Shown: positions 9,040 to 31,032 of the stretch, piece by piece
Position numbering within the stretch: the stretch's first letter is position 1
Layout of the letters: each line of letters opens with the position of its first letter
Assembly: GCA_016291005.1 (NCBI GenBank)
Contig: JAEEVT010000007.1
Location: 1-45,765 of the forward strand
DNA length: 45,765 nt
Source: Prevotella sp.
GTDB lineage: Bacteria; Bacteroidota; Bacteroidia; Bacteroidales; Bacteroidaceae
Direction: 5' to 3'
Made by a program: the position numbers and the translations under genes
The notes under the pieces: generated by a model
Told to the model about the DNA's origin: nothing
Database searches by the model: none
Seen by the model: the letters and a program-made list of their open reading frames with translations, nothing else

Positions 9040-9048
9040 GTTTTTTGT

Positions 9049-9097
9049 TTATTGTTTACCGTTTACAGTTTATTGTTTACCGTTTATTGATTATTGT
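9049..9097. repeat. degenerate microsatellite spacer (GTTTATTGTTTACC units)
   Basis: gtttattgtttaccgtttacagtttattgtttaccgtttattg. Confidence 0.7.
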
Positions 9098-10462
9098 TCA
9101 AAGTGAGAAGATTGATGATTTCTTAAAATAGTTCTCTACCTTCTTCAATTGTTGCTCGTGGCAGAAAACCATCACCGAGTCACCTGCCTCGATCTGCGTG
9201 TTACCATTGACCAGGATGCCCTGCTCCTTACGGACCAAGCCACCAATGGTCACGCCAAAGGGTAAACCGAGTTCCTTGACGGGCTTTTTGGTGACCTTGG
9301 AACCCTCTGCAGCTACAAACTCAGCCACGTCGGAGTCGACAAGCATCAAGGAACGTACGTTGCTGACATCGGCATCCAGCATCATCTGATAGATGTGGCT
9401 GGCGGCCAGCGTCTTCTTGTTGATGATGGTACCAATGTCCAAGCTCTCGGCCATCTCCACATAATCGAGGTTTTCCACCATCGCCACCGTCTTGCGGACA
9501 CCTAAGCGTTTGGCCGTCAGACAAGCCAGGATGTTGGTTTCGGCATTGCCAGTCAGGGCTACAAAGGCCTGCGTGTTCTGGATGCCTTCGTCCTGCAAGA
9601 GACCAATGTCTCGTCCGTCACCATGAATAATCATCACGTCCAAGTCGGAGAGTTTCTCGTTGAGTCGTTCGCAACGTGCAGCATCCTGCTCGATAATCTT
9701 TAGGTTCATGTAGTCAGGAACTATCTTGGCCACACGGACGGCAGTACGTCCGCCACCCATGATGATGACGTTCTTGACATCGGCATAATGCTCCTTGCCG
9801 GAAATCTGACGAATATAGGGGATGTACTCACGGGTGGTCATGAAGTAGGCCAGGTCGTTGACGTGCAGTTCGTCGTTACCACCAGGAACCAACGTTTCCC
9901 CATGACGCTTGATAGCCACAATAAGATACGGGTCTTCCGGACCGCAAAGCGTACGTAGGGGTTTGTTCAATATCTCACAGGTTTCGCGTAACTTGATACC
10001 CAGCATGACGAGGGCTCCACCGTGCACGTCCCAACGCTGACGGGCCCACGACATTTTCAGTCCGTTGGTGATGTCAACGGCAGCCAACACCTCTGGGAAG
10101 ATGAGCGAGTTGATGCCCATCTTTACGAAGAATTCCTTGCGTGCAGGGTCGAGATATTCGAAGTTGTCGATGCGCGCAACAGTCTTCTTCGCCCCTAAGG
10201 CATGAGCTAACATGCAGGCGGTCATATTGCGACTCTCGTCAGGAGTCACACCGACAAAGAGGTCGGCATGTTCCACATCAGCATCCTTGAGCGTCGTGAT
10301 GCTGGTGGGGCGGCCTTGTAACGTCATGATGTCATATCGACTGTCGAGGTCGCCCAGACGGTTTGGGTCTTCGTCTATCAGCACGCAGTCCTGATGGTCG
10401 CGTGACAGCAGTTTCGACAGGTGAGTACCCACGGCACCTGCACCGGCTATGATGATCTTCAT
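9098..10462 (-). CDS. trkA: Trk system potassium transporter TrkA
   Basis: MKIIIAGAGAVGTHLSKLLSRDHQDCVLIDED; duplicated TrkA-N Rossmann domains. Confidence 0.93.
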   Translation of the reverse strand: MKIIIAGAGAVGTHLSKLLSRDHQDCVLIDEDPNRLGDLDSRYDIMTLQGRPTSITTLKDADVEHADLFVGVTPDESRNMTACMLAHALGAKKTVARIDNFEYLDPARKEFFVKMGINSLIFPEVLAAVDITNGLKMSWARQRWDVHGGALVMLGIKLRETCEILNKPLRTLCGPEDPYLIVAIKRHGETLVPGGNDELHVNDLAYFMTTREYIPYIRQISGKEHYADVKNVIIMGGGRTAVRVAKIVPDYMNLKIIEQDAARCERLNEKLSDLDVMIIHGDGRDIGLLQDEGIQNTQAFVALTGNAETNILACLTAKRLGVRKTVAMVENLDYVEMAESLDIGTIINKKTLAASHIYQMMLDADVSNVRSLMLVDSDVAEFVAAEGSKVTKKPVKELGLPFGVTIGGLVRKEQGILVNGNTQIEAGDSVMVFCHEQQLKKVENYFKKSSIFSL

Positions 10463-13530: not shown

Positions 13531-14631
13531 ATGGAAAACAAAAGAACCTGTCTTTATGACAAACATGTTGCCTTAGGGGCGCTTATCTCACCTTTCGGCG
13601 GTTTCGACATGCCTATACAGTATAGTGGTATTGTCGACGAGCATCTGGCCGTTCGTCAGGCATGTGGCGTTTTCGACGTCAGCCACATGGGCGAGGTACT
13701 TGTCAGCGGTCCTGAGGCTGAACGGTATGTGAATCACATCTTTACCAACGACGTTACGAAGGTTGCCAACGGTAAGATACTCTATGGCATGATGTGCTAC
13801 GAGGACGGTGGTGTGGTGGACGACCTATTAATATATAAGGTGGCGGCTGACCGTTACTTCCTGGTCATCAATGCGTCCAATATCGATAAGGACTGGGCCT
13901 GGATACAAGAGCAGGCCAAAGGCTATGACGTCACGCTGGAACACCAAAGCGAACAGTATGGTGAACTGGCCGTACAGGGGCCTGAGGCAGAGCGGGTGAT
14001 GGAAGAGGTGCTCCAAATTCCCTGCCAGGAACTGACTTTCTATACCTTTAAGGGCATGAAGCTTCCAGAGGCGGAGGGCGTAGTTATCGTCAGCCGCACA
14101 GGCTATACGGGTGAGGACGGCTTTGAGATTTATGCCACTCCTGGATATATCAACGACTGTTGGGACAAACTGATAGCCAGCGGATGCTGCAAGCCTTGTG
14201 GACTGGGCTGTCGCGACACCCTGCGTTTTGAGGTGGGACTACCGCTCTATGGCGATGAGTTGTCTGAAGAGATCACACCCGTGATGGCAGGTCTGAGCAT
14301 GTTTGTGAGACTCGACAAGGAGGAGTTTATAGGCAAAGAAGCTTTAGCGCGCCAAAAGGCCGAAGGTCCCAGCCGCAAACTCGTCGGCATCGAGTTGGCA
14401 GACAAAGCCATTCCTCGTCACGGATATACCGTCCTGAAGGATGGTGAAGCCATTGGCGAAGTGACCACAGGCTACCACACCATTTCTACTGACAAGAGCG
14501 TCTGTATGGCTCTTATCGACGCCCAGTATGCCACTTTAGGGACGGAGGTCGAGATACAGATTCGCAAGAAGGTGTTCCCAGGGAAAGTGGTGAAAAAGCA
14601 ATTCTATAACAAAAACTACAAGAAAGATTAA
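13531..14631 (+). CDS. gcvT: glycine cleavage system aminomethyltransferase (T protein)
   Basis: MENKRTCLYDKHVALGALISPFGGFDMPIQYSGIVDEHLAVR; start at 13531. Confidence 0.95.
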   Translation: MENKRTCLYDKHVALGALISPFGGFDMPIQYSGIVDEHLAVRQACGVFDVSHMGEVLVSGPEAERYVNHIFTNDVTKVANGKILYGMMCYEDGGVVDDLLIYKVAADRYFLVINASNIDKDWAWIQEQAKGYDVTLEHQSEQYGELAVQGPEAERVMEEVLQIPCQELTFYTFKGMKLPEAEGVVIVSRTGYTGEDGFEIYATPGYINDCWDKLIASGCCKPCGLGCRDTLRFEVGLPLYGDELSEEITPVMAGLSMFVRLDKEEFIGKEALARQKAEGPSRKLVGIELADKAIPRHGYTVLKDGEAIGEVTTGYHTISTDKSVCMALIDAQYATLGTEVEIQIRKKVFPGKVVKKQFYNKNYKKD

Positions 14632-14678
14632 AGATTTAAGATTAAAGACTAAAATTTAATATTTAATTGAGAAGGATT

Positions 14679-19463: not shown

Positions 19464-20894
19464 TTAGTTGCTCTTGGCATTTTTGAGGAGGGTGACGTTG
19501 GACAGCTTGATTTGGGCGGTCTTGTCGTCAATCTGTTTGTCAGCCTTGTTGTAGATGATGGTGGTGTTGCTGATGTCCACGTCGTGGATGCAGTTCAGAC
19601 CAGCCATACCGTTAGCCCTGATGCCTGTCTGGGCGCCTCGGCAGGTGACGTTGGTGATGTGGATGTCCTGGAACTCGGGTGCCAGCTTACGCTGTTCGTC
19701 GGTATAGGTGGGCACGGCGTTGGGGTCGCTGCCTGCGGGACGGTCCACGTAGTCACATTGGAAGACGATGGCCTCGCCTGCGATGTCAGTCATCACGATG
19801 TCCGAGATGTACATCTGCTCGGTCTTTCCTCCCCTGCCCACGCTGCTCTTGAAGCGCAGGCCAGTATCGGTGCCTGAGAAGGTGTTGTGACGCACGACGA
19901 TGCGCCGCATGCCGGCAATGGTCTCGCTGCCCAGCACGAAGCCTCCGTGGGCGTGATAGACGATGTTGTCCTGGATGACGATGTCCTCGCAGCCGTTGGC
20001 AGGCGACTGTGGCTTCACCTTGTTACTCTTCATGCAGAGGCCGTCGTCGCCAGCATCGACGATGCAGTTGACGATGAGTCCCACATTGATGTCGGAGAAG
20101 TCTATGGCATCGCCGTTCTGTGCATTCCACGGGCAACGTACTGTGACGCCGTCGAGGATGACGTTACGACAGTTCAGCGGGTGGACGTGGAACTTGGGTG
20201 AGTTCTGGACGGTGACACCCTCGATGAGGACGTTCTCGCAGTCGGTGAATCGGATGATGTCGTTGCGCATCTTCTCTTGTTTCTCGGGTGTCTCGGCAAT
20301 GTCGGCATCGCCCCATTTCATCTGCCAGGGGTACCACAGCTTGCCGTCCTTGCTCTCCTGGCCTCCGAGGGCTTTGTACCTGTTCCACTCGATGCTGCTC
20401 ACCTTGTCGCGCTTCACGGGGCGCCAGTGCTCGCCGTTGCCGTCGATGATGCCCTGACCAGTGATGGCGATGTTCTTGCGCTTCGAGGCCTTGATGGCGG
20501 GCAGTACGCGCGAGGCTTTGGCATTGCCCTTGTCGACGTACAGCTCCTTGTCGGGCGAGAAGACGAGAATGGCGTTCTTCTCTAAGTGCAGGTCGATGTT
20601 GTCCTTCAAGTTAACAGGCCCTGTGAGCCACACGCCCTCTGGGATGACGAGTCGGCCGCCGCCTTGCTTCGTCAACTGACTGATGCCCTTGGCGATGGCG
20701 TCTGTGTTCAGCGTCACGCCGTCGGCTACGCCGCCCACGTCCTTCAGGTTCACCTGGTTGTTGGGGATGACGGGTCGCGAGACGCGAGCCACTTCGACGA
20801 GCAGCTGTTCGTAATACTTACTGTACTCTTGCGCCCTGGCGGCTACGGAGAGCACCAGGGTGATGACGATGATGATGTTCTTGAGTTGCTTCAT
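19464..20894 (-). CDS. glycoside hydrolase family 28 protein (polygalacturonase-like), secreted
   Basis: signal peptide MKQLKNIIIVITLVLSVAARAQ; NLKDVGGVADGVTLNTDAIAKGI; parallel beta-helix motifs NSPKFHVHPLNC, GDDGLCMKS. Confidence 0.88.
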   Translation of the reverse strand: MKQLKNIIIVITLVLSVAARAQEYSKYYEQLLVEVARVSRPVIPNNQVNLKDVGGVADGVTLNTDAIAKGISQLTKQGGGRLVIPEGVWLTGPVNLKDNIDLHLEKNAILVFSPDKELYVDKGNAKASRVLPAIKASKRKNIAITGQGIIDGNGEHWRPVKRDKVSSIEWNRYKALGGQESKDGKLWYPWQMKWGDADIAETPEKQEKMRNDIIRFTDCENVLIEGVTVQNSPKFHVHPLNCRNVILDGVTVRCPWNAQNGDAIDFSDINVGLIVNCIVDAGDDGLCMKSNKVKPQSPANGCEDIVIQDNIVYHAHGGFVLGSETIAGMRRIVVRHNTFSGTDTGLRFKSSVGRGGKTEQMYISDIVMTDIAGEAIVFQCDYVDRPAGSDPNAVPTYTDEQRKLAPEFQDIHITNVTCRGAQTGIRANGMAGLNCIHDVDISNTTIIYNKADKQIDDKTAQIKLSNVTLLKNAKSN

Positions 20895-22335
20895 TTTGAT
20901 TGTTATTAGTAGTTTGGTTGTTCTGGAATTCTTTCTCGCGGGCGTCAAACTTGTCCAGCTTGTCTAAATAGTACTGGCGCAGTTCCTTCCACGGGTAATA
21001 GGGATGTTGGGTAGTCTTCACGGGCAGGGTGCACTCGCGCTCGTTCAGCAGCACCTTGACCAGTATGTCGCCGCCGGCATTGTCTGCGGGACGGTAGAAA
21101 ATGATCTGCACGTTACAGCCCATCGGGAAGATCTTGTAGTTGCGCCAGAGGGTCTCCAACTGCATGAGGTCTGTCACTTCGGCACCGCTGTTGCCCAGTT
21201 CCATCAGGCAGGCTAAGGGCATCACGCACACCTCGTGGCCGAAGCGCATCGTGGCCTGCACCTGCGTCACCGTGTCGGCAGTCTCGATGATGTTCCGCAG
21301 CAGGTTCCTCTGTGAGAAAGGCATCACGCTCCCTGTGGCTGGTGCGGGACCGTAGTGCAGGTACCAACGGACATTATCCATGCGCCACTGGTTATAGACC
21401 TCGTCCTCGGTGAACAGCGAGAACATGTCGATGCCGTCGTCGTGGCTCTGCATGTTGGTGACCACCTCAAACAGCCGGTCCATCAGCTGTTCGGCCTTGA
21501 TGCTGTCGCTCACCCACGCAGGGTCGTTGAACAGCACCTTCATCAGACGGTCGGGCGTGTGGGTCTTCCTGACTTCATCGTTGAACTGGCGACGCACGTC
21601 AGAACTCTTCTCGCGCATGTGCTGCAACAAGCCCGAGCGAGGCTGGTTCAGGTAGTACTGCAGGGCGTCGCTCACGTCGTTGTGGAACCGTATCGTGGGA
21701 TTAGCGGCGGCCAGCTGCTCACACTCGGCCATCATCGACAGGATGCAACGGTTCACCGTCGTCGAGCGTGCATCGATGCGGATGCCCTCCTTCAGGAATA
21801 TCTCGGGGAAGTTCTTGGCCATACGGCTTGCAATGCCGTGATGCTGGCGTTCGCCGACCGTCGTCAGGTCGCCCAGTCGCAGCTGAGCACCCGAGAACTG
21901 GCCGTCCAAAGCGGGGAAGTCGGCCACGGGCAGACGATAGAATGCCGTCAGCTGAGTCAGCACCTCCTCACCCTTTGCAGTCAACTTGCCCTGCGCCTTA
22001 GCCTTCTGGAGCGGGTCCAGGACGCTGGTATAGCTGTCCTTGGCGATGAGCCAGCGCGAACCGTGACGGCCGTAGTGCGACATATAATAAGGAACGTAAC
22101 CCGCAGGTGCAGGCGTCAGCGCCTCAGTGGCCAGCTGGCGGTCGTAGTCCAGATAGTTGCTGCCGGAGAGGAACTTGTTCGCCTTGATTTCCTCGCGTGC
22201 CGTCTGGCCGAAGGGTACCACACCAGCCCCGCGCACCGTCTGAGCAAGAGAAGTCACACCAGCCCCGCTTGCAGCCTGGGCAAGGGCACCGAGAACAAGT
22301 CCTGTGAAGAGCAATAGAGCAGTCAGTCTTTTCAT
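20818..22335 (-). CDS. secreted histidine-type (branch 2) acid phosphatase
   Basis: signal peptide MKRLTALLLFTGLVLGALAQ; SHYGRHGSRW (RHG) motif; FGHEVCVMPL candidate proton-donor region. Confidence 0.8.
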   Translation of the reverse strand: MKRLTALLLFTGLVLGALAQAASGAGVTSLAQTVRGAGVVPFGQTAREEIKANKFLSGSNYLDYDRQLATEALTPAPAGYVPYYMSHYGRHGSRWLIAKDSYTSVLDPLQKAKAQGKLTAKGEEVLTQLTAFYRLPVADFPALDGQFSGAQLRLGDLTTVGERQHHGIASRMAKNFPEIFLKEGIRIDARSTTVNRCILSMMAECEQLAAANPTIRFHNDVSDALQYYLNQPRSGLLQHMREKSSDVRRQFNDEVRKTHTPDRLMKVLFNDPAWVSDSIKAEQLMDRLFEVVTNMQSHDDGIDMFSLFTEDEVYNQWRMDNVRWYLHYGPAPATGSVMPFSQRNLLRNIIETADTVTQVQATMRFGHEVCVMPLACLMELGNSGAEVTDLMQLETLWRNYKIFPMGCNVQIIFYRPADNAGGDILVKVLLNERECTLPVKTTQHPYYPWKELRQYYLDKLDKFDAREKEFQNNQTTNNNQNEATQEHHHRHHPGALRSRQGARVQ

Positions 22336-22370
22336 TTTACGAGTCTTTTTAGAGATTAGTTTTACGACTG

Positions 22371-22378
22371 CAAAGTTA
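22371..22378 (-). promoter_or_regulatory. Bacteroidetes -7 box (TAACTTTG) for acid phosphatase
   Basis: CAAAGTTA on + strand. Confidence 0.6.
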
Positions 22379-22480
22379 CGAAAAAAATCTGAATTATCCA
22401 ATACTTTCCCTTAAAATCTTCAAGATATTTTTGAGTGCTTTGTATCATCCGTCATTGTCAGTCGAAAATTCGATTTACAT

Positions 22481-22641
22481 TGTTGCAGTTGTTGCAGTGT
22501 TGCAGTTCCAAAACACATAGTCCGAGGACATGAAAATAATCTATTTATATATATAATATATATATTATATATATAAATAGAAGTAATTTGGCATATGGGT
22601 AAGTCTTCTCGAGAACTGCAACAACTGCAACAACTGCAACA
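22481..22641. repeat. nested inverted repeat centred on a perfect palindrome
   Basis: arms 22481-22508 and 22613-22641 (28/29 nt, one indel), each 32 nt from a perfect 40-bp palindrome at 22541-22580. Confidence 0.92.
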
Positions 22642-22707
22642 GCGAGAGCAGAGTCAGGTTGTTGAGGAAGTACAGAAATCATGGCGATAAAGGCAAGAAA
22701 TCTAGGT

Positions 22708-22835
22708 GATTTCCTCAAGAAGTTGCCGTGATTTCCGTAAGAAGTTACCGTGATTTCCGTAAGAAGTTGCCGTGATTTCCGTAAGAAGTTACCGTGATTT
22801 CCGTAAGAAGTTGCCGTGATTTCCGCAACTTTTCC
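22708..22835. repeat. 22-bp tandem repeat array (5 copies plus partial) upstream of dnaG
   Basis: units gatttccgtaagaagtt(g/a)ccgt at 22708, 22730, 22752, 22774, 22796; degenerate sixth. Confidence 0.92.
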
Positions 22836-22924
22836 TAAGGATTTCTGATGGAAAGTGCCGTGATTTTTTCGTGACTTCGCTAAATAAAATTCTCCGAATC
22901 GCTTGGCGGTTGAGGGATTTTTCG

Positions 22925-22932
22925 TAACTTTG
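22925..22932 (+). promoter_or_regulatory. Bacteroidetes -7 box (TAACTTTG) for dnaG
   Basis: TAACTTTG ending 9 nt before dnaG ATG. Confidence 0.65.
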
Positions 22933-22941
22933 CAACCGACT

Positions 22942-24909
22942 ATGATAGATAGGGCGACGGTAGATAAGATTATGGACGCCGTGAACATCGTGGATGTGGT
23001 GGGCGAGTTCGTTAACCTGCGCAAGGCGGGGGTTAACTATAAGGGCTTGTGTCCGTTCCACGACGACAAGACGCCGTCGTTCATGGTGTCGCCGGCGCGG
23101 CAGATATGTAAGTGCTTTGCCTGTGGCGAGGGCGGTAACGCCGTCAACTTCCTGATGAAGCACGAGCAGATTACCTATCCTGAGGCCTTGCGCTGGTTGG
23201 CGAAGAAATACAACATCGAGATTCAGGAGCGCGAACTGACGGACGACGAGAAGCGTGAGCAGTCGGAGCGCGAGTCGATGTTCATCGTCAACGAGTGGGC
23301 GTGCCAGTACTTCCACGACATCCTGAAGAACAACGTCGACGGCCAGGCCATTGGCAAGCAGTACTTCCGCAGTCGAGGCATCAGGGACGACATCATTGAG
23401 AAGTTCCAGTTGGGCTTTGCCCTCAATAAGCGCGACGCCTTAGCCAGCGAGGCCCGCCGCAAGGGGTATAAGGACGAGTTTCTGGTGAAGACGGGATTGT
23501 GTATTGAGAATGAAAAGGGTCTTTACGACCGCTTTGCCGGCCGCGCCATTTTCCCGTGGCTGAACGTCAGCGGCAAGGTGGTGGCCTTCGGAGGCCGTAA
23601 GCTTGACGCCGCCACCAAAGGTGTGCAGCAGAAGTACGTCAACTCGCCCGACTCGGAGATTTACCACAAGGAGCGCGAGCTCTACGGCATCTATCAGGCC
23701 AAGAAGGCTATCGTCAAGGAAGACTGCGTCTATATGGTGGAGGGCTATACCGACGTCATCGCTATGCACCAGTGTGGCATAGAGAACGTGGTGGCCAACT
23801 CGGGTACGGCGCTGTCAACTTATCAGGTGAAGCTGCTGCATCGTTTCTCGCAGAACATCGTACTGCTCTATGATGGTGACGAGGCTGGCATACATGCTGC
23901 CATGCGAGGGACGGATATGCTGTTGCAGGAGGGTATGAACATCAAGGTCTTGGTATTGCCAGACGGCGACGACCCTGACTCCTTTGCCCGCAAGCATACC
24001 GCTCAGCAGTTCATGGACTACATCAGCGAGCACCAGAAGGACTTCATCCAGTTCAAGACCGACCTGCTCTTGAAGGGCGTCACCGACCCGCAGAAGCGCT
24101 CGGAGGCCATCGCCAGCATCCTGAAGAGCGTCTCCATCATTCCTGACCCGCTGAAGCGTAACACCTATCTCTCGGAATGCTCTCACCGTTTTAACGTCAA
24201 CGAGCAGGCGCTGGTGACGACGGTAAACAGCTATATCCAGAAGGACAAGGAAGACAAGCAGAAGGAGCGCGAGCGGGCCATGAGCGGTCAGGGACAAGTC
24301 GCTGAGACGACAACCGGCCAGCGTCAGGAAACGGCGCCGTTGGTCATTGGTCTGCATACCGCCCAGGAGCAGACGTCGGAGGTGGAACGCCTTATCATCC
24401 AGAACATTATCCGTCACGGCGACGAAATCATCTTCAGCGACTTAGAGGCCGAGGACGGCAGTACCGTCAGCCTGAACGTGGCACAATATGTGGACTTCGA
24501 CCTCTCGCAGGACAGTCTGACCTTCAGCACCCCTATATATAATAAGGTGTTGGAGGAGGCTGTGCTCCATTCCGCCGACGAGGGCTTCAAGGCCGACCGC
24601 TACTTCCTCCAGCACCCTGATCCGCAGATCAGTCAGCTGGCAGCCTCTTTAGGCATCGACCGTCACCAGCTGAGCCGTAGCTTCGAGATAAAGAAGCGCG
24701 ACGGCGACCTGCGCCAGCGCATGCAGCACTTGATTCTGGACTTCCGCATGGACATCGTCAACCAGCACATGAAGACTCTCCAGACTCAGCTGAAGCAGGC
24801 CGGTTCGGACATGGAGCGCATCAAGGCCTTGATGGAAGACTATAAAGATACACAGGAGCTGCGCAACGCTTTGGCTAAAAAGCGCGGCAGCGACGTCATA
24901 GTGAGTTGA
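22942..24909 (+). CDS. dnaG: DNA primase
   Basis: MIDRATVDKIMDAVNIVDVVGEFVNLRKAGVNYKGLCPFHDDKTPSFMVSPARQICKCFACGEGG zinc finger; Toprim VEGYTDVIAMHQ. Confidence 0.96.
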   Translation: MIDRATVDKIMDAVNIVDVVGEFVNLRKAGVNYKGLCPFHDDKTPSFMVSPARQICKCFACGEGGNAVNFLMKHEQITYPEALRWLAKKYNIEIQERELTDDEKREQSERESMFIVNEWACQYFHDILKNNVDGQAIGKQYFRSRGIRDDIIEKFQLGFALNKRDALASEARRKGYKDEFLVKTGLCIENEKGLYDRFAGRAIFPWLNVSGKVVAFGGRKLDAATKGVQQKYVNSPDSEIYHKERELYGIYQAKKAIVKEDCVYMVEGYTDVIAMHQCGIENVVANSGTALSTYQVKLLHRFSQNIVLLYDGDEAGIHAAMRGTDMLLQEGMNIKVLVLPDGDDPDSFARKHTAQQFMDYISEHQKDFIQFKTDLLLKGVTDPQKRSEAIASILKSVSIIPDPLKRNTYLSECSHRFNVNEQALVTTVNSYIQKDKEDKQKERERAMSGQGQVAETTTGQRQETAPLVIGLHTAQEQTSEVERLIIQNIIRHGDEIIFSDLEAEDGSTVSLNVAQYVDFDLSQDSLTFSTPIYNKVLEEAVLHSADEGFKADRYFLQHPDPQISQLAASLGIDRHQLSRSFEIKKRDGDLRQRMQHLILDFRMDIVNQHMKTLQTQLKQAGSDMERIKALMEDYKDTQELRNALAKKRGSDVIVS

Positions 24910-28141: not shown

Positions 28142-29623
28142 ATGATTTCCGACGAGTTGACATATCGTATCCGGGAGGTGTTCGGCCATGTGCCTACCCG
28201 AGAACAGGAACAGGCCATAGGCGTCTTCACGACGTTTATGACAGACCATCGTGAGGAGGCTGTGATGGTGATGCGTGGCTCGGCGGGAACGGGAAAGACC
28301 ACGCTGGCTGCTGCCGTCGTACGGGCACTGGCTGCTCTGGGACAAGAGTTCGTGCTGCTGGCTCCAACAGGACGGGCGGCGAAGGTTTTCTCACTGTATT
28401 CTGGACATCCTGCCTACACCATCCATCGTCGCATCTATCGCCAGAAGTCTTTGGAGGGTGGATTCTCGCTGGGCTACAATATGGCGAAGAACACGCTGTT
28501 CATTGTCGACGAGGCCTCGATGGTTAGTAACGGCTCGTCAGCCGACAGCATCTTTGCCGGCGGACAGTTACTCGACGACCTCATACAGTTTATCTATAAT
28601 GGTCGAAACTGTCGGCTGATGCTCATTGGTGACCGTGCCCAGCTGCCGCCAGTAGGTGAAGTGACCAGTCCGGCTCTTCAGGCAGAGATGCTGAGAGGCT
28701 ATGGTCTGCACGTCTATGAGTGCGACCTGAATGAAGTGCTGCGCCAGAGTCAGGAGTCGGGCATCCTGTGGAATGCCACCAGGATCAGGAACCTCACTCC
28801 GGTTGAAGAGTGGGGTGGGGAATCGTCTGAGAGTCAAGTGCTGCCCACTATTCGGTTTTCTGGATTCTCAGACATCAAGGTGGTGCCTGGCGACGAACTC
28901 ATCGAGTCGCTGGCATCGAGCTACTCGAAGGTTGGTATGGATGAGACGATTGTGGTCACACGCTCCAACAAGCGTGCCAACATCTATAATCAAGGCATTC
29001 GCCGTACCGTCCTTGACCGCGAGGACGAGTTGTGCACGGGAGACCGACTGATGATCGTGAAGAACAATTATTATTGGGCCAAGCAGCTTCCCTCCCGTCA
29101 AGAGGAGGGGCAAGGAGGAGAGTCTCTTTCCTTCATTGCCAACGGCGACATTGCTGTGGTGCGACGGGTGCGTAACATCCAGGAACTCTATGGTTTCCGC
29201 TTTGCCGAGGTGACGATGACCTTTCCAGACTACGATGACTATGAGTTGACGGCCACCACACTCCTTGACACCCTGACCAGCGAGGCACCAGCCCTGACCC
29301 GTGACCAGCAGGAACAGCTGTTCCAGCAGGTGCTGGCCGACTATGCCGACATCCGCTTCAAGGCCGATCGCCTGAAGAAGCTCAAAGAGGATAAATACTT
29401 CAACGCCTTGCAGGTGAAGTTTGCTTACGCTGCCACCTGCCACAAGGCTCAAGGCGGGCAGTGGGCACACGTCTATGTCGACCAAGGCTATATGACTGAT
29501 GATATGCTGACTGCCGACTATCTGCACTGGCTCTATACCGCCTTCACTCGTGCCACGGAGCAGCTCTACCTCGTTAACTGGCCAAAGACGCAGACCGCAG
29601 AAACGATGAACTGTGAACGATGA
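28142..29623 (+). CDS. AAA/RecD-like DNA helicase (UvrD C-terminal-like)
   Basis: Walker A GSAGTGKTTLA; VDEASMVSNG; GDRAQLPPVGE; TCHKAQGGQWAHVYVDQ; YTAFTRATEQLYLVNW. Confidence 0.88.
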   Translation: MISDELTYRIREVFGHVPTREQEQAIGVFTTFMTDHREEAVMVMRGSAGTGKTTLAAAVVRALAALGQEFVLLAPTGRAAKVFSLYSGHPAYTIHRRIYRQKSLEGGFSLGYNMAKNTLFIVDEASMVSNGSSADSIFAGGQLLDDLIQFIYNGRNCRLMLIGDRAQLPPVGEVTSPALQAEMLRGYGLHVYECDLNEVLRQSQESGILWNATRIRNLTPVEEWGGESSESQVLPTIRFSGFSDIKVVPGDELIESLASSYSKVGMDETIVVTRSNKRANIYNQGIRRTVLDREDELCTGDRLMIVKNNYYWAKQLPSRQEEGQGGESLSFIANGDIAVVRRVRNIQELYGFRFAEVTMTFPDYDDYELTATTLLDTLTSEAPALTRDQQEQLFQQVLADYADIRFKADRLKKLKEDKYFNALQVKFAYAATCHKAQGGQWAHVYVDQGYMTDDMLTADYLHWLYTAFTRATEQLYLVNWPKTQTAETMNCER

Positions 29624-29656
29624 ACTATGAATTATGAACTGTGAACTATGAACTGA
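29596..29656. repeat. degenerate ATGAACTGTGAAC repeats across helicase 3' end and rmuC start
   Basis: cgatgaactgtgaacgatgaactatgaattatgaactgtgaactatgaactgatg. Confidence 0.75.
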
Positions 29657-31032
29657 TGATTGCAGTATATATTATAATAGGTGTAGCCCTTGGGGCTGTG
29701 GTGGTCTACCTCGTGATGAATCCGAAGCAGGCCAGGCTGGTGGTCGAACTGGCCAAGAAGGAAACTGAGATGCAGCTGTTGACGCAACAGACCGCTGAAC
29801 AGAAAGAGGCCGAGCGCCAGATGTTCGAACAGCAAAAACAAGCTGACCGTCAGATGTTCGACCAACAGAGACAGGCTGAGCGCCAGATGTTCGAACAGCA
29901 GTTGCAGACCGTCCGTGAACAGTTACAGAACATGGCCCAGCAGCAGATGGAGGCGCAGACCTGTCGGCTGAAGGAAGAGAACCGTGAGAGTATGAACACT
30001 ATCACGCAACCTTTGAAGGACGCCATCAGCGAGATGCGCAAAGCCATCAATGACAACACCAAAGACCATACGGCACAGACGGCCTCGCTCAAGGAACAGC
30101 TGCGGCTGATGATGGAAACGGGGCGCGAGATGAGTGAAAAGGCCGAGGGACTGGCCAACGTGTTGCGCCGCGACAACAAGGTCAGTGGCAATATGGGTGA
30201 GATTATCCTTGGCGACCTTCTGGCAAGTCAGGGACTCACCGAGGGCATCCACTATGAGGTGCAAGCCCGACTGCGTGACGAACAAGGTCGTCCGCTGAAA
30301 AACGACGATACGGGGAAGGAAATGCAGCCCGACGTCATTCTGCACTATCCGCAGGGACAGGATGCCGTCATCGACTCCAAGGTATCGCTCGTTGCCTACC
30401 AGCGCTATGTCAATGCACAGACGCCGGACGAGAAGGAGCGCGCCTTGCAGGATCACATCAAGAGCATCCGCAGCCATGTTACGGAATTGGCACGTAAGGA
30501 CTACTCCAAATACATCAAGGCTCCACGCGAGGCCGTTGACTTCGTCATCATGTTCGTACCTTTCGAGTCATCGTTGCAGTTAGCGTTGGCCAATGATCCC
30601 ACGCTGTGGCGCGACGCCTTCGAGCGTAAGGTCTTCGTCACTGGCGAACAAAACCTCTTAGGCATTCTCCACATGATACACATCGCCTGGGTGCAGAATC
30701 AACAGGCCGAGAACCAGGAAAAGGTGTTCGGCGTGGCTGAACAGCTGCTCGACCGCTTAGGCGACTTCATCCAGCGTTATAATAAGGTGGGGGAAAACAT
30801 AGAACAGTTGCGCAAGTCGTTCGATGCCGCAGGCAACAAGCTCTTCACTGGCCGCCAGAGTGTGGTGCAGAAGGGCAACGAGCTGAAGTCCCTCGGTGCC
30901 AAAGAAAACCCCAACCGCCGCATCCCCCAACCCCAAGAATCCGCGCTCGACCTTTCTTCCACTGAACCCCAAGAGTCCGCGCTCGGCGGTTTTCCCGCCG
31001 AGTCCCTTTCCAAAGATGTTTTACCTGAATGA
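29641..31032 (+). CDS. rmuC: DNA recombination protein RmuC
   Basis: TM N-terminus, coiled coil with repeated EQQKQADRQMFDQQRQAERQMFEQQ, RmuC core VSGNMGEIILGDLLASQGL...DAVIDSKVSLVAY; start could be 29656. Confidence 0.92.
   Translation: MNYELMIAVYIIIGVALGAVVVYLVMNPKQARLVVELAKKETEMQLLTQQTAEQKEAERQMFEQQKQADRQMFDQQRQAERQMFEQQLQTVREQLQNMAQQQMEAQTCRLKEENRESMNTITQPLKDAISEMRKAINDNTKDHTAQTASLKEQLRLMMETGREMSEKAEGLANVLRRDNKVSGNMGEIILGDLLASQGLTEGIHYEVQARLRDEQGRPLKNDDTGKEMQPDVILHYPQGQDAVIDSKVSLVAYQRYVNAQTPDEKERALQDHIKSIRSHVTELARKDYSKYIKAPREAVDFVIMFVPFESSLQLALANDPTLWRDAFERKVFVTGEQNLLGILHMIHIAWVQNQQAENQEKVFGVAEQLLDRLGDFIQRYNKVGENIEQLRKSFDAAGNKLFTGRQSVVQKGNELKSLGAKENPNRRIPQPQESALDLSSTEPQESALGGFPAESLSKDVLPE
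30931..31002 (+). repeat. direct repeat plus hairpin in the rmuC 3' end
   Basis: CCCCAAGARTCCGCGCTCG at 30931-30949 and 30967-30985; CTCGGCGG-TTTTC-CCGCCGAG (30982-31002). Confidence 0.8.

Follow-up and report, generated by a model that had tools for sequence, protein, structure and literature searches.

Among the closest described systems is the BrickBuilt MITE of Porphyromonas gingivalis, an intergenic, multi-copy element of the Bacteroidales with inverted-repeat ends, tandem repeats and outward promoter activity (PMC4596501). In the same species, the HU protein PG0121 binds DNA with an inverted repeat upstream of the capsule operon (PMC3969353). More generally, REP and BIME sequences with their RAYT transposases (PMC2817692, PMC3733652) are dispersed extragenic palindromes of bacteria, and inverted repeats have been found enriched near gene starts (PMC13155455). 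The locus considered here lies in a stretch of 45,765 nucleotides from Prevotella sp. (the window), in which positions 22481-22641 are one copy of a dispersed, non-coding, low-copy family of hairpin elements found only in Prevotella in our samples. The family, scattered through rumen Prevotella genomes, is apparently undescribed so far; the part of the literature that was covered gave no description of it. The element and its surroundings comprise the following features:

20818-22335, minus strand: left-hand divergent gene with an RHG phosphatase-like motif and no family match (motif; profile searches)
22369-22385, minus strand: outward promoter-like motif TTTTTCGTAACTTTGCA of the TAnnTTTGC type, putatively of the left-hand gene (by motif), about 100 bp away from the element and repeating the dnaG-side motif in inverted orientation
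22481-22508, plus strand: left outer arm, built from TTGCAG repeats (three 8/9-mers) and closed by the A-end motif CAGTTC (19-bp inverted match; period 8-9; homologous in 80 elements)
22509-22539, plus strand: inner region CAAAACACATAGTCCGAGGACATGAAAATAA of the A side, the A and B ends being distinguishable (A-side consensus across species)
22540-22581, no strand: perfect 42-bp A+T palindromic core (exceeds the 18-20 bp maximum of shuffles)
22582-22612, plus strand: B-side inner region, unlike A and kept as B in other copies (cross-species consensus)
22613-22641, plus strand: right outer arm, in which three CTGCAACAA 9-mers repeat the left arm in inverted orientation (inverted match; tandem period)
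22706-22866, plus strand: tandem array with a 22-bp unit (GTGATTTCCGTAAGAAGTTGCC) in about 5.5 copies, located between element and dnaG (tandem-repeat search)
22918-22934, plus strand: outward promoter-like motif TTTTTCGTAACTTTGCA, putatively of dnaG (by motif), about 280 bp from the element
22942-24909, plus strand: dnaG, DNA primase (TIGR01391, 447.6 bits)

An earlier sequence-only reading had described a nested inverted repeat around a perfect 40-bp palindrome, and this symmetry was confirmed with a slightly longer core of 42 bp (22540-22581), as compared to longest palindromes of 18 bp in 20 shuffles of the window and 20 bp in 2000 local shuffles. The arms (22481-22508 and 22613-22641) indeed each lie 32 nt from the palindrome when measured from the 40-bp core at 22541-22580, and they share a perfect 19-bp inverted match (22480-22498 with 22615-22633). 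Their tandem period is 8-9; of the 9-bp direct repeats noted for the arms, the right arm has three 9-mers and the left has one unit of 8 nt in place of 9, which is why the arm lengths differ by one nucleotide. The strong cruciform potential that had been proposed is likewise supported, family copies being dispersed, bounded and multi-copy with covarying arms.

A covariance model built from 12 copies matched in 91 of 300 species of the same genus, with a sporadic distribution; the order's other genera, represented by 147 genomes, gave no match. The proposed search of the genome itself and of related species was positive on both counts: the window's own genome carries a second full copy on contig C64 as well as partial copies at the contig ends of C130 and C194, possibly one locus cut in half. 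Positive genomes usually hold 1-4 copies at unrelated loci, which is low for a MITE. The named records containing the core motif belong to Prevotella, Prevotellaceae or Bacteroidales MAGs, most of them recovered from the rumen, and a phage or plasmid origin was rejected, as no match occurred among phages, plasmids and viral contigs. A contig end lies within 700 bp for 20 of 80 copies, and element copies account for some of the contig breaks in rumen Prevotella assemblies. The window element itself is no assembly join artefact, one of the circumstances named as fatal to the original claim, because independent homologous copies exist in many genomes, including the single-contig genome G141.

When 80 elements were oriented and compared, each copy showed two different ends, covarying tandem-repeat arms, an A+T palindromic core and an intergenic position. 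The elements are about 155-170 bp long, non-coding and bordered by inverted-repeat arms; their ends can be told apart as A (CAGTTCCAAAATAGGTTATACGAAAGTCAAAAATTAA) and B (CAGTTCTCGAAAAGGCTATTCCCATACCCTAAAAATACTT), both read toward the core, and the core is perfectly palindromic over 18 bp or more in 67 copies (maximum 60 bp). The arm unit (TTGCAG, TTACAG, CTACAG or CTGCAG) is identical on both sides in 78 of the 80. Alignment of the elements revealed both-side changes in 13 pairs as compared to 6.4 in shuffles, an excess somewhat inflated by the presence of some elements in both orientations. The arms are often fused with another repeat, GCGAGAGCAGAGCCAAGCTTGCTTGAGCTATGCCGAGCGCCAGCAGTTGTCGACGAAGTCAAC (L028:58-220 and the flanks of L039, L095, L106 and L127).

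Elements usually sit between outward-pointing promoter motifs: within 300 bp, the Bacteroidetes-type motif TAnnTTTGC points away 93 times and toward the element 7 times (A side 44 and 5, B side 49 and 2), with a peak 50-100 bp outside the element, although some loci are orthologous, so that these counts are not all independent and are inflated by shared ancestry. Pfam matches to HU-HIG, an HU-type DNA-bending protein, were obtained for 15 of the 89 genes whose start faces an element, as compared to about 10 matches in the whole of the window's own genome and 2-30 in relatives of the genus; with HMMs built on element-adjacent HU-HIG proteins, an HU-HIG gene reading away within about 600 bp was found at 30 of the 80 elements, in most cases on the B side, and these counts are subject to the same shared ancestry. 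Just upstream of the HU-HIG-linked promoters lies a box, TTCGTRAACCGCA, that occurs 38 times within 450 bp and not once in 299 kb farther out (a number again raised by orthologous loci), and the strict box-plus-promoter pattern is rare genome-wide. Conversely, long-armed inverted repeats (score at least 10) precede 13 of 37 HU-HIG genes versus 7 of 72 controls (Mann-Whitney p = 1.5e-4; HU-HIG loci oriented and scanned upstream only, controls from the window's own genome only). The idea that HU-HIG genes usually carry the palindromic-core element failed, with 1 case in about 37 sampled loci, and no HU-HIG gene stands beside the window copy or the other full copy of its genome. In element-linked cassettes, HU-HIG is followed by a 39-aa DUF6486-like ORF (L102:4233-4349 and similar) resembling the 'smalltalk' proteins of Bacteroides. 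At L117 and L140, HU-HIG genes stand beside elements that look truncated or internally deleted, which suggests decay of the cassette.

HU-family proteins bind distorted DNA. Taking these observations jointly, we tentatively favor, with confidence a little short of even, that the elements are MITE-like hairpins which supercoiling extrudes as cruciforms, which HU-HIG proteins bind and which tune nearby promoters. Negative supercoiling accumulating upstream of active promoters would melt the core and extrude the cruciform, the repeat arms would stabilize it, and HU-HIG proteins would bind it, so that neighboring promoters may respond to supercoiling or to the HU-HIG level; both the extrusion upstream of active promoters and the HU-HIG binding are proposed because of the analogy with the HU-bound inverted repeat of P. 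gingivalis. At the window copy, the genes affected, if any, would be dnaG and its left-hand neighbor. Spread would be MITE-like and driven by an unnamed transposase, with the element moving by itself or together with an HU-HIG gene and the promoter of that gene. They may thereby offer a candidate DNA site and partner for the expanded, poorly understood HU-HIG proteins of the Bacteroidales, as well as a natural setting in which cruciform-prone DNA next to promoters can be tested.

The strongest competitor, which we regard as a serious if rather doubtful possibility, is that the family is a purely selfish MITE, spread by an unnamed transposase and devoid of host function, which persists only where it is harmless, in compact genomes just upstream of promoters, with the HU-HIG cassettes being passengers or sharing the mobility of the element. 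The promoter proximity could then be survival bias. Much of the distribution fits: the copies are discrete, bounded and dispersed, their presence among species is sporadic, the element is missing at dnaG of relatives, and neighbor genes differ at nearly every copy. Copies at unrelated loci of one genome, compared genome by genome, are 73-97% identical, and their alignments mostly end 5-25 bp from the arms. Larger units have also been duplicated, namely element plus HU-HIG gene in L102/L125 (bounded at the outer arm, from -7) and HU-HIG plus element in L166/L168 (bounded at the outer arm, to +20), while L164 and L165 have in common the element and about 117 bp including the promoter, the remainder being different. 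These sequence comparisons support dispersal of the copies, by a mechanism that we infer. The MITE-like nature suggested at the outset is partly right and stands as regards dispersed, bounded, multi-copy elements with covarying arms; as to transposition, no transposase was found among the families reported for the nearest neighbor genes of elements and no target-site duplication was found, the repeat arms blurring the ends and filled and empty sites being compared between species only. On contig C191 of the window's own genome, an ORF with the HUH-like motif MMPDHLHGIIF (L183:1176-2303) resembles a RAYT transposase and has a hairpin with GGTCATTT arms as well as an HU-HIG gene next to it; it has no Pfam match, and the RAYT link was set aside. 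What speaks against a purely selfish element is the sharp 50-100 bp spacing to outward promoters with a dedicated box, the HU-HIG enrichment, the paired change of both arms and the fact that hairpins differing in sequence have repeatedly occupied one site.

This site is the uvrC-dtd gap. In G075, it contains a 146-bp class-1 insertion directly upstream of the dtd promoter, in G025, G018 and G061 it is without the element, and in G007, G032 and G020 it holds hairpins with quite different arms; filled and empty sites, as known from MITEs, are hence present here between species rather than between strains. Altogether, 23 of 47 species carry a long-armed inverted repeat (score at least 10) with many different arms in this gap, a count that includes G075, from which the comparison started, and a few matches of a different plan. 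The locus is either an insertion hot spot or a place at which structure is kept while sequence changes, and lends itself to a direct test of conserved structure versus non-conserved sequence. The same plan combined with other arms is also seen in hairpins of the window's own genome, i.e., GGTCATTT (C191, C152) and GTGACGCAGTGACAC (C36), and of G141 (GTGCCATC arms); an inner ATTAAG motif common to several arm classes hints at descent. A class-1 element of G141 has as its neighbor a second hairpin, whose arms are CGTGCCATCGTGCCAT and whose A+T palindrome is long (L165:3170-3380). In total, 18 long-armed inverted repeats were counted in 444 kb of the window's own genome as compared to none in 120 kb of shuffled sequence, some of the 18 looking like ordinary terminator-type hairpins. 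An extension of the favored cruciform reading, which we consider unlikely, would be that Prevotella has a genus-wide set of cruciforms ahead of its promoters in which the arm sequence turns over completely but the architecture persists, each arm class perhaps being cognate to one HU-HIG paralogue. Paralogues and arms would then co-evolve as a many-channel, supercoiling-sensitive control layer.

The symmetry itself might be a mutational by-product, with hairpin-templated strand switching during replication correcting imperfect repeats to palindromes in the absence of selection. Such a correction would fit the perfect cores, which vary in length, the symmetric changes and the uniformity of repeat units within each element; we nevertheless deem it improbable, as the A and B inner regions have kept their differences across species where correction would have made them symmetric, and dispersal, promoter spacing and HU-HIG association are left unexplained.

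A structured RNA, as also suggested by the sequence-only reading, or a transcription terminator acting in the transcript is very improbable, even though the single-strand fold of the window element is very stable (-71.8 kcal/mol, z = -10.8) and the base pairs covary. The elements lie upstream of outward promoter motifs, and gene settings are divergent in 23 cases and convergent in 8 (co-directional in 29). G.T and A.C mismatches in the arms are equal (23 and 23), i.e., there is no G.U strand bias, and DNA is favored over RNA because the arm units change together without it. A known RNA family was ruled out, no Rfam family scoring above its gathering threshold and sub-threshold hits being confined to plant and animal miRNA models.

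The gap had been described as lying between a phosphatase and dnaG; the latter was confirmed (TIGR01391), and the former is suggested by the RHG motif typical of histidine phosphatases, the gene having no match at 1e-3 in Pfam or NCBIfam. The 22-bp array lies outside the core element and is perhaps associated with it. Similar repeats adjoin other hairpins of the same genome (L026:3318-3460, L183:829-960, L190:1330-1450, L185:690-840, L193:1930-2060). Tandem repeats with a 7-bp period are numerous within and close to gene gaps of the window (e.g., 9040-9098, 14623-14663 and 29602-29659) and resemble the short tandem repeats forming the element arms. Upstream of dnaG, long-armed inverted repeats occur in 2 of 9 readable relatives, are weak and apparently formed by paired promoter motifs. 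A dnaG-linked site for DNA unwinding, replication or primase loading, as its upstream position and A+T-rich core had suggested, is hardly credible and a dnaG-specific function was rejected, because the element is absent from the readable dnaG upstream DNA of the nine nearest relatives, the neighboring gene is not conserved, elements stand beside many unrelated genes and GC skew is weak in this region of the window.

How, then, does the element compare with the described systems? Judged by its sequence, it is MITE-like, its length falling within the 50-1000 bp range of MITEs and its copies being non-coding, multiple and dispersed with terminal inverted repeats, and it was distinguished from known MITE and REP families by its ends. 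It shares with REPs and BIMEs the nature of a dispersed extragenic palindrome, whereas REPs measure 20-40 bp and bear GTAG or CGTC tags (PMC2817692, PMC3733652); the element, of about 160 bp, has repeat arms and no such end tag. The preference for positions upstream of gene starts agrees with the general enrichment, a statistical trend that defines no element family and was reported without mention of Prevotella (PMC13155455). Like the capsule operon case, it combines a long upstream inverted repeat, cruciform potential and a linked HU-family gene; PG0121, however, concerns a single locus and a canonical HU rather than HU-HIG, with no dispersed family, repeat-built arms or A+T palindromic core described, and binding there is paralleled here by HU-HIG gene adjacency alone (PMC3969353). 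BrickBuilt is similar in its order, intergenic position, copy number, inverted-repeat ends and tandem repeats, and its outward promoter activity is counted as a likeness that we know here from promoter motifs (PMC4596501). No close match to its minisatellite or CCGAAAGGTCTC-type ends was found near the element, where the adjoining array has its own 22-bp unit. Both appear to be sited at promoters and are set apart by ends and body: BrickBuilt carries CCGAAAGGTCTC-type ends and a 23-nt minisatellite between leader and tail, whereas in the Prevotella element the repeats form the arms and the center is an A+T palindrome.
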